Source: an uncultured Flavobacteriaceae bacterium
Lineage (GTDB): Bacteria; Bacteroidota; Bacteroidia; Flavobacteriales; Flavobacteriaceae
NCBI GenBank assembly: GCA_947503005.1
Contig: CANNCA010000002.1
Span: 806,001 to 870,000, forward strand
DNA length: 64,000 bases
Direction of reading: 5' to 3'
The notes under the pieces are model-generated. The model saw only the letters and a list, made by a program, of their open reading frames with translations. It did no database searches and was not told where the DNA came from. This document shows positions 46,111-47,674 of the stretch, piece after piece. Every line of letters begins with the position of its first letter. The first letter of the stretch is position 1. Position numbers and translations under genes: made by a program.

Positions 46111-46378
46111 AACTATGTTGTACAAGGTCAATTTGGAAGGCAACATTCTGGACAGAGCATTGCGGCAATAGTAACAAAGGCCGCAGAAAAAAGGGGGATT
46201 AAAGTAAGGGTGACCCCTCAAATGTAACGGCATAGTTTTGCCACTCACCTATTGGAAGTTAGGGTAAACTTAAGACAAATACAAGTACTATTGGGCAATG
46301 GTTCGAGCAAAACAACAGAAATATATCTATGTGGCTACTTCTACATTTAGTTCGATCAAAAAGCCTTTAGATTTGAAA
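46111..46378 (+). pseudogene. Remnant of XerC/IntI-like tyrosine recombinase (C-terminal part)
   Basis: The frame starting at 46111 reads as the C-terminal catalytic part of a tyrosine recombinase: SGQSIAAIVTKAAEKRGIKV, then [29 protein letters not shown]. An in-frame TAA at 46225 replaces the residue before the catalytic Arg, the box-II His is Gln, and a 2-base deletion directly after the catalytic Tyr shifts the tail ([15 protein letters not shown]) into another frame. The N-terminal two thirds are absent. It is clearly dead, and lies at the head of the second cassette island. Confidence 0.85.
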
Positions 46379-46390
46379 AAACATATAGTA

Positions 46391-46430
46391 TATAATGGAC
46401 ATATGTCCATTATACATAAGTTGGCGACAA
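46391..46430 (+). other. Candidate attI-like site: 24-bp palindrome plus GTTGGCGACA junction
   Basis: TATAATGGACAT followed by its exact reverse complement ATGTCCATTATA (46391-46414), then GTTGGCGACA at 46420. It sits directly between the recombinase remnant and the first accessory gene, as an integron primary recombination site would. GTTGGC recurs at the ends of elements A and D. Confidence 0.5.
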
Positions 46431-46462
46431 TCATGCTGTATCAAAAATTAAAGACAATACAG

Positions 46463-46869
46463 ATGTTGGAGAATCCGAAAATTAATATCAAACTAAAACT
46501 TTCTGCCCTTTGGACTTCGTTAATGGCATTCTACATTTATGGAGATTACTTTGAATTATATGTTCCTGGAAAAGTTGAAAATCTGATAAATGTTAAAGCC
46601 AAATTGGAAAGTCCAACTCTTTTGTTAGTAGCATCGATATTAATTGCTATGCTGCAATAATGATTGTACTTTCTATATTATTGAGACCGAAAGTAAACAG
46701 GATTCTTAATATCGTCTTTGGGGTTTTGTTGACTCTTATTGTAATACTTGTAGGTAGCACCTCGATTTCAATTTGGTATAGCTTTTACTTGATGTATGCC
46801 TTTATAGAGGCTATAATAACGATTACCATCATTTGGACTGCATGGAAATGGCCAAAAGGAGCATCTTAA
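46463..46869 (+). pseudogene. DUF6326 family membrane protein, broken by a one-base deletion
   Basis: The first half (MLENPKINIKLKLSALWTSL, then FYIYGDYFELYVPGKVENLI) and second half (MIVLSILLRPKVNRILNIVF to AWKWPKGAS) are consecutive parts of one DUF6326 protein of four membrane helices. They lie in different frames. Adding one base near 46648 restores IA-x-AAIMIVLS and a continuous product of about 135 residues. The overlapping longer frame that begins at 46298 fuses recombinase debris to the first half and is not a real gene. It occupies the first cassette position after the attI-like site. Confidence 0.75.
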
Positions 46870-46888
46870 TTGAAGAGATAAAAAAACT

Positions 46889-47023
46889 GTTGCCAACAAA
46901 GGCCAAAATTCATTGCGCGCCAATTTCCTAAACGGAAATCAAGCACAAAAAACTATCTTTAGGTTCGGCTGGATTGTCCTTCGGACGAATCACAGCAACG
47001 AACCTTAGCTCAGCCGTTATGCG
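46889..47023 (+). repeat. Fold-back cassette-type element C
   Basis: Starts at GTTGCCAACA, 19 nt after the DUF6326 stop, and ends in CCGTTATGCG. It carries ATTTCC/GGAAAT, the TTAGGTTCGGCTG arm pairing with CAGCAACGAACCTTAG, and the inner GATTGTCC-TTC-GGACGAATC stem. About 115 nt are near-identical to element A, 12 kb away. Confidence 0.7.
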
Positions 47024-47111
47024 CAAGCTGAATAAACCGAACCTACTAGCATCAATCCAGTCAAAAAAACAAACATTTTTGGTAACTTTATGACTAATAA
47101 TCCATAAAACC

Positions 47112-47525
47112 ATGACCGCAAATAAAGCATGTATTATCCCGACAATTCAATATAAAAATGCAAAAACAGCCATCGAATGGTTATGTTCAGTATTCGGATT
47201 TGAAAGGCACCTTGTAGTCCAAGGAGAGGAAAATACAATTACACATGCTCAACTGACATATGGAAATTCGATGATTATGTTAAGTTCCGAAAACAACAAT
47301 GAATATGGCAAATTGGTAAAAGCACCCAACAGTTTGAACGGAATGAATACTCAAGCACCTTATATAATTGTCGAAAAAATTGATGAACATTATGAACATG
47401 CTGTTGCCAGGGGTGCAAAAATACTTTTAGAAATTAAGGATCAAGGGTATGGTGGTCGAGGCTATACATGTAAGGATATTGAAGACCATATTTGGAATTT
47501 TGGCTCATATAATCCTTGGAATTAA
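47112..47525 (+). CDS. VOC family protein (glyoxalase/PhnB-like)
   Basis: A 137-residue protein of the vicinal oxygen chelate superfamily: IIPTIQYKNAKTAIEWLCSV starts the first beta-alpha-beta module, THAQLTYGNSMIMLSSENN ends it, and the second module runs APYIIVEKIDEHYEHAVARG to KDIEDHIWNFGSYNP. The PhnB-like subgroup is closest; substrate (possibly a drug or small thiol adduct) unknown. The gene stands alone between elements C and D, like a cassette, and appears AT-rich. Confidence 0.85.
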   Translation: MTANKACIIPTIQYKNAKTAIEWLCSVFGFERHLVVQGEENTITHAQLTYGNSMIMLSSENNNEYGKLVKAPNSLNGMNTQAPYIIVEKIDEHYEHAVARGAKILLEIKDQGYGGRGYTCKDIEDHIWNFGSYNPWN

Positions 47526-47539
47526 CCTAAATAGAAAAG

Positions 47540-47674
47540 CTGGCATACAACAAACTGTATAGTTCATTGTTCTGAAATTCCTTTTGGGAATTTCCTAGCT
47601 TATGAACAACGATTTCACTCCATTTGCTATATAAGCGTTGATTGCTACGAAACCATACACGAAACCGTTGGCAA
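47540..47674 (+). repeat. Fold-back cassette-type element D
   Basis: Begins AAGCTGGCATACAACAAAC 15 nt after the VOC stop and ends CATACACGAAACCGTTGGCA. It contains GAAATTCC/GGAATTTC around a short loop. Its opening (ACAAC..TGTATAGTTCATTG) aligns with element B, and its GTTGGCA end matches element A. Confidence 0.6.

Follow-up and report, generated by a model that had tools for sequence, protein, structure and literature searches.

The locus described here is very probably the remnant of an integron-like gene-cassette system that is spread across the Bacteroidia and is run by a tyrosine recombinase of the Xer/XerA type, free of the I2 insert. It lies in a stretch of 64,000 nucleotides from an uncultured Flavobacteriaceae bacterium, which was analysed as a whole and is hereafter called the window. 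The observations behind this reading are the anatomy of the loci, the complementarity of the cassette end boxes, exactly repeated units, first cassettes that differ between species, and the missing I2.

A decayed array beside a tRNA gene

The array in the window is a decayed fossil, in which the recombinase gene is mostly gone and a few decayed cassettes remain. Its platform sits immediately 3′ of a tRNA-Met gene (45689..45763, + strand, by ARAGORN), as it does in four genomes of the same genus (loci L118, L120, L123 and L124). A motif read by eye, CAGGTACAACATAGATACAAC (45810..45830, + strand), which by eye also lies 3′ of the tRNAs in L118 and in the platform on contig C4 of the source genome, is a possible left boundary of the platform. 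It is followed by the remnant of a divergent zinc-ribbon gene (45905..46051, − strand, left limit approximate), recognised by a DNA match of window positions 45508–46051 to positions 569–1087 of L118, where the zinc-ribbon gene occupies 939–1316. The recombinase is represented by a C-terminal remnant (about 46126..46373, + strand) with an internal stop, the bulk of the gene being absent; it matches TIGR02249 over 230–297 and, at the DNA level, the end of the L118 recombinase gene. Next come an attI-like perfect palindrome of 24 bp (46391..46414, + strand), 5 nt, and the GTT of the GTTGGCGACA junction at 46420.

Cassette 1 (46420..47015, + strand) consists of an R′ box (GTTGGCGACAAT), a broken DUF6326-like gene, an R″ box and the attC-like element C (46884..47029, + strand), which spans the R″ box to the next GTT box. 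The DUF6326-like gene is spread over two frames and its Pfam match is found in the second ORF only (E 3.4e-4; 21.3 bits, below the cut-off of 24), so that it is probably a pseudogene. Cassette 2 (47016..47666, + strand) carries an R′ box (GTTATGCGCAAG), a VOC (glyoxalase-like) gene (47112–47525, from the ORF list and Pfam) and the attC-like element D (about 47538..47680, + strand), which ends at CCGTTGGCAAAA; the end boxes of this cassette, GTTATGCGCAAGCT and (complemented) GTTGTATGCCAGCT, do not pair with each other, and no further cassette was seen behind element D in the window. The recombinase remnant, palindrome, junction, DUF6326-like gene, element C, VOC gene and element D of the original prediction were all located. 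Its claim that the recombinase is dead agrees with the truncated, stop-containing remnant. Intact recombinase genes stand at the same site in two other genomes. One, from the same genus (G149), has the same tRNA-Met, the divergent zinc-ribbon gene and an intact 375-aa recombinase, followed by a palindrome and a first cassette that differ from those of the window (the contig ends soon after that cassette); the other (G159) has an intact recombinase at the same tRNA-Met site.

Taken alone, the window is weak evidence, because its fold-backs are modest and the chain search does not rise above shuffles. Element C folds with z = −2.12 and element D with z = −1.92, and 9 and 8 of 200 shuffles, respectively, fold equally well; the chain search on the window stretch scored 3 against a shuffle maximum of 7. 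A simple inverted-repeat search of positions 44000–50000 gave no result, and Rfam at gathering scores returned nothing besides the tRNA over positions 33000–50000. The ends of cassette 1 are the exception and pair at 6 of 7 variable positions, position 11 showing the A/G mismatch and position 12 matching; among the 10,328 GTT/AAC pairs of the window lying 300–800 bp apart, 21 reach 6/7 and cassette 1 is the only one with all end features.

A second locus in the window and copies elsewhere in the genome

A second attI-like palindrome (34372..34399, + strand), without an adjoining recombinase gene, is followed by AATT and GTTATCTGCAAG; according to a scan of the + strand (stem of at least 9), it is one of two palindromes standing before a GTT in the 64-kb window. 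Behind it lies a decayed cassette (34404..34979, + strand) with a small gene and an attC-like element (34858–34982) that is 85% identical to element C; no R″ box matching its start was found. The following cassette (34980..36521, + strand) is well preserved: its R′ box (GTTGGCATACATTT, 34980–34993) and R″ box (AAACGTATGCCAAC, 36363–36376) pair perfectly over 10 nt, with a mismatch at position 11, and an attC-like element follows, the end of which was counted by hand. Its gene is, by eye, amidohydrolase-like.

Element C has 10 more full or partial matches in the source assembly (the search gave 13 rows, the other three being the locus itself, a recombinase match and the reverse strand of the palindrome), and none in the plasmid collection. 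Several of these matches fall on short contigs that are themselves cassette arrays, and in three loci of the source genome (L009, of 4.5 kb, L010 and L011), single genes alternate with fold-backs to form arrays, that of L011 being a chain of 14 cassettes. Intact recombinases with the same layout are encoded on contigs C4 (375 aa) and C11 (394 aa); on C4, the gene is followed by a palindrome and cassettes in the same direction. The chain scores of the C4 locus (two consecutive 10-nt links) and of the C11 locus did not beat shuffles.

Similarity of element C to 10 other places in the genome, together with a fold only modestly above shuffles, is what one would expect from dispersed repeats (REP or MITE-like palindromes, or terminators) that chance to follow genes. 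We consider this the least credible of the readings weighed here and rejected it: the copies follow gene and recombinase boundaries, the elements are lined up in tandem behind a recombinase, units of gene plus element recur as exact duplicates, and the boxes pair cassette by cassette according to an end rule that contradicts such an origin. Neither dispersal independent of genes nor a lack of nearby recombinases, either of which would have spoken against the original prediction, was observed; the cassette turnover that it called for was seen between species only.

Cassette ends are complementary and cassette-specific

The end rule was first read by eye in L009, where a cassette begins with GTT plus several bases and ends with their exact complement before the fold-back. 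In relatives, the start of a cassette reads GTTRN6A, and its end, before its own fold-back site, is complementary to these bases; among the end boxes, there are 141 different 7-mers. Loci with intact recombinases have in common a tyrosine recombinase, an attI-like site and tandem, co-oriented, single-gene cassettes. A search for such end boxes gave 305 cassette links in 46 loci; one shuffle of each locus gave 34 in all, which puts the share of chance links at perhaps a tenth. Since the chain finder itself yields false links, weak chains (L098, L090, L014 and the window stretch) are no proof on their own. The longest chain behind a recombinase has 26 links (25 after filtering). At least two chained links were present in 29 of 40 fetched recombinase regions of the family and none in the remaining 11, in six of which the contig stops 0.1 to 2.1 kb past the gene; among the loci listed, the chain scores of L083, L090, L092, L094 and L095 did not beat shuffles.

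Box positions 1–9 match by construction and position 10 (0.77) is part of the chain score. Past the mismatch at position 11, where the match rate is 0.03 (300 of 305 links have A at the start, and 260 have G on the complement of the end), positions 12–14 match at 0.87, 0.90 and 0.78. When the box is compared with the start of the next cassette, the match falls to 0.61 at position 4, 0.38 at position 5 and about 0.3 at positions 6–9, with 0.45–0.66 at positions 12–14, where the bases are T-rich. A site search that used only the inner boxes gave 132 sites against 34 in shuffles, and 28 of 74 consecutive pairs of these sites matched at 7/7.

The core boxes of classical attC sites are GTTRRRY and RYYYAAC. 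Counting the R′ side only, GTTRRRY fits 17 of the 305 cores, in keeping with the original prediction of a non-classical core. With these cassette-specific complementary ends, and with arrays standing behind the recombinases of relatives, the integron-like array described for the window is borne out: what had been observed there is confirmed, and its interpretation is supported.

The recombinase lacks I2 and falls outside the IntI clade

Recombinases of the intact relatives are mostly 370–403 aa long, and the residues R, K, H, R, H and Y, taken as catalytic, are invariant in 27 of 27. The distance from the KG..DR motif to the LRHS box is 71–72 aa in 40 of 40 family recombinases (39 from other genomes plus that of C11, with chained links behind 28 of the 39 and behind C11; L087, where no recombinase frame was found, was left out), as against 113 aa in 12 of 12 canonical IntI, these being the best-scoring in the phylum and 11 of them coming from one family. 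The family recombinases are without the I2 insert that canonical IntI have. An alignment with IntI4 agrees, with 66 residues between the two aligned pieces in IntI4 and 23 in the family recombinase. In other phyla, intervals of 112–114 aa were found in L203 (113), L213, L216 and L217, and one of 94 aa in L206.

In the tree, the IntI rows form a clade of 17 with 100/100 support that contains no array-bearing recombinase of the Bacteroidia; support for the surrounding branches is weak, and the Bacteroidia rows do not form one clade (L181 and L189 stand apart). Scores with TIGR02249 were 216.6 and 189.3 bits against a cut-off of 265, those with NF040815 were 228.2 and 222.4 bits, just above the cut-off of 220, and those with the XerC and XerD models were well under their cut-offs. 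The closest solved relatives by sequence are XerC-like 4a8e, IntI4 (2a3v) and XerA (5hxy), and by fold XerA and IntI4. The predicted structure of a Seonamhaeicola recombinase (pLDDT 84, pTM 0.55) has an Xer/IntI-like core and an extra alpha-beta N-terminal domain; this extra stretch of about 100 aa had no Pfam match. The family recombinases differ from XerA, XerC, XerD and NF040815 proteins in this domain and in adjoining cassette arrays.

An ordinary integron, or a CALIN served by a canonical IntI that was lost or acts in trans, would have the same layout, and canonical IntI over the cut-off do occur in the phylum, in 105 of 395 genomes. One of these 105 belongs to the same class and none to the family, and the source genome gave no match over the IntI cut-off. 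Together with the absence of I2 from all 40 family recombinases, their position outside the IntI clade and the scarcity of GTTRRRY among the cores, this makes service by a canonical IntI highly improbable, and we rejected it. The loci nevertheless resemble IntI integrons (class 1, the Vibrio superintegron and archaeal ones) in the recombinase beside attI, the tandem, co-oriented single-gene cassettes, fold-backs with outer and inner boxes, the GTT core, a bottom strand predicted to fold best and exactly repeated units. Besides lacking I2 and falling outside the IntI clade, the family differs from them in an outer box that is cassette-specific over 7 bases in place of GTTRRRY, an attI that is often a perfect palindrome, a recombinase gene in the same direction as the array and the N-terminal extra of about 100 aa.

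Palindromic attI sites and the platform

In 15 of 20 class-A loci, a GTT is preceded at 3 to 6 nt by a perfect palindrome whose stem measures 9 to 14 bp, as the original prediction of a palindromic attI would have it. The GTT was picked for the best stem, in shuffles as well; in 14 of the 15 loci, none of 50 shuffles did as well, and in the remaining one, 1 of 50. The palindromes mostly differ in sequence between loci (L074 and L075 are alike) while palindromy stays; in the other five class-A loci, the palindrome is imperfect by eye. Among class-B loci, a palindromic attI is mostly absent, a stem over 8 being found in 1 of 20 only (L096), and many have TATAACNA before the GTT in common. The first chained GTT box lies 27–125 nt past the stop codon in 15 of 40 loci, and farther off or nowhere in the rest. 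By eye, attI palindromes resemble the inner boxes of attC sites (GGCTAAA..TTTAGCC, GTATAAT..ATTATAC; for example, window 34372–34399), as if attI were an attC minus its outer box.

Some of the scanned platforms have a tRNA or tmRNA gene nearby (Met, Leu/Gly, Arg, tmRNA), namely those of the window (45689–45830), L118, L122, L014, L128, L129 and L132. Judged by eye, three platforms adjacent to such genes have a CAGGTACAACATAG-like sequence in common, and an integrative element may have brought in the platform itself. Upstream of class-A recombinases in platforms of the same genus, a divergent zinc-ribbon gene of about 125–130 aa was also noticed (L118, 939–1316; L014, 3188–3580). One of the same kind adjoins the C4 recombinase, and the gene is a possible accessory or regulator.

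Cassette units and their cargo

In L059, a unit of 470 bp occurs at four places and one of 2007 bp at two, all 100% identical from GTT to GTT and with dissimilar sequence upstream of the duplicates. In the duplicates of L068 and L084, the 60 bases upstream are partly similar too, and the preceding site is of one type. Two loci from different genera (L081 and L091) have common cassette units, with up to 93.6% identity. Such exact units at several places, and the different first cassette of the sister species, bear out the integron-like array first proposed. Where homologous cassettes carry different boxes, both ends were altered in 11 of 50 pairs; 23 positions had changed at both ends and were still paired against 4 one-sided changes (about four independent events), a ratio biased by the selection of candidates with at least 6/7 pairing, which limits one-sided cases. 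As a separate observation, homologous cassettes in L065, L076 and L009 keep gene and end box, with a different fold-back interior, as if converted to the type of the host.

The longest ORF lies on the array strand in 254 of 297 distinct cassettes and on the opposite strand in 21; 22 have no ORF of 50 aa. Among 90 of the 254 cassette proteins that were sampled, we found 62 Pfam families with at most two members each; the 25 families listed are varied, and some cassette proteins resemble defence proteins.

Predicted folding and a proposed mode of recombination

Folding energies were predicted for 120 sites drawn at random from 251. On the bottom strand, they averaged −30.3 kcal/mol in the circle form, −23.8 in the array form and −23.8 with a random box; the top strand in the circle form averaged −26.3 kcal/mol. 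At 119 of the 120 sites, the bottom strand was predicted to fold better than the top, and at 118 the cassette's own end did better than that of its array neighbour. This asymmetry in the models would fit a substrate that folds best as a free circle.

In the mechanism that we envisage, an Xer/XerA-type recombinase with an extra N-terminal domain and without I2 would insert circular cassettes, mostly of one gene plus a fold-back attC site, at an attI beside its own gene, often a perfect palindrome followed by GTT. Because the outer box complements the first bases of the same cassette, the closed circle would show a near-perfect hairpin, probably on the bottom strand as the folded substrate; a crossover inside or adjoining the GTT would mean that all sequence 3′ of it travels with the cassette. 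In an array, the outer box would face the first bases of the next cassette and pair poorly, and insertion may be easier than excision. We infer from the sequences that the recombinase moves the cassettes, and likewise that crossover may fall exactly at the GTT and that pairing in the array may hinder excision; the folded single (bottom) strand is a putative substrate suggested by the folding predictions.

The deletion of I2 is described in PMC7790495 as abolishing the function of IntI1, so single-strand recombination without I2 is not a given, which counts against our preferred explanation. The same cassettes might instead be handled by a recombinase acting on double-stranded sites, as Xer does, with the fold-backs serving as terminators or decoration; the recombinase aligns in one stretch to XerA/XerC-like enzymes, without I2, and the palindromic attI of many loci could bind a dimer. 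We regard this as unlikely, since a double-stranded mechanism leaves the 10 to 13 complementary end bases of each cassette without evident reason, and equally the preference for the bottom strand in predicted folding at 119 of 120 sites.

Distribution, plasmid loci and rAID

A search with the C4 recombinase gave matches at E 1e-40 or better in 102 of the 149 genomes covered from the same family, and 64 of the matches run from residue ≤20 to ≥372. A profile at 1e-70 matched 195 of the 395 genomes sampled from the class, in some of them within the catalytic part alone. Of 20 regions from its other families, 13 had strict end pairs and 10 had at least two, against shuffle means of 0 to 0.25; in four of the seven regions without strict pairs, the contig breaks off no more than about 230 bases from the gene. 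A wider set of 80 loci gave strict chains in 11, all Bacteroidota, with hosts that include Winogradskyella ursingii, Seonamhaeicola aphaedonensis, Algibacter onchidii, Lutibacter, Zunongwangia mangrovi, Arundinibacter roseus, Rufibacter and Carboxylicivirga. No strict chain was found in about 32 loci of other phyla; one shuffle, that of L176, also gave 2. On a loose test, L203 and L206, which have longer, IntI-like intervals, exceed shuffles. The original guess of a Bacteroidota variant was well placed, array-bearing relatives being found across the Bacteroidia.

In 10 of 333 plasmid records, at least 80% of the recombinase is matched in a single place. The GTT chain score beat shuffles in three of six plasmid loci (L332, L333 and L335) and failed to do so in L330, L331 and L334, the first two of which gave nothing. 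As a side observation, the body of one cassette in L335, on a Chryseobacterium plasmid (Weeksellaceae), is 84% identical to that of a cassette in the chromosomal array L085. Behind the recombinases of L330 and L331, on plasmids of Parabacteroides distasonis and Bacteroides ovatus, are arrays of immunity genes. When ATT was allowed for GTT, a rule drawn up after inspecting their spacers, these two loci gave 8 and 9 links, with 7 and 8 different starts; 50 shuffles averaged 0.22 links and never exceeded 2. Relatives on viral contigs (the best 80 of more) match only within about residues 84–375, at ≤49% identity.

The nearest known relative of the cassette system is rAID, described in PMC12247911 as a tyrosine recombinase with short, co-oriented genes behind it and conserved motifs between them; that article presents it as a defence system, the biogenesis of which is an area of active research. 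The family loci have these features in common with it, and the rAID-like plasmid recombinase matches the family over residues 14–375 at about 42% and is, by eye, without I2. In rAID of gut Bacteroidales, the cargo consists of T6SS immunity genes, the sites are shorter and, in the two plasmid loci, the core is ATT, whereas the cargo of the family is varied and not one of T6SS orphan immunity genes, the window carrying DUF6326-like and VOC genes; single immunity genes may still occur among the 90 sampled cassette proteins. Similarity at this level suggests that rAID loci may be built by the same kind of cassette capture. These results go beyond the original prediction: the recombinase lacks the insert that defines IntI, the end boxes are cassette-specific and not conserved, and two rAID-like loci obey a similar rule.

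A wider reading can be offered tentatively, at somewhat less than an even chance: the Bacteroidia would possess a second integron lineage, with I2-free recombination of folded sites and barcoded cassettes, of which rAID arrays would be a specialised branch grown by cassette capture. Because near-perfect pairing of the outer box would arise in the free circle only, insertion would be favoured in such a lineage and excision from the array hindered.

Implications

Among the matches listed in our literature search (titles and beginnings of abstracts, with preprints and subscription papers thinly covered), we found no report of this system. At least one survey of integrons retained only integrases with the additional domain of IntI (PMC2426708), and the description of archaeal integrons relied on that domain as well (PMC9668308); a system free of I2 would fall outside searches keyed on it. 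The account of IntegronFinder 2.0 names one complete integron in Bacteroidetes proper, that of Salinibacter ruber (PMC9024848). If our reading is true, a gene-capture system of many Bacteroidia has been overlooked. PMC7790495 points out that direct proof of I2 as the cause of single-strand recombination is lacking, since its deletion kills IntI1; a natural system free of I2 would be the missing comparison for the role of this insert. Cassette capture of this kind would also offer a mechanism for the growth of rAID arrays.
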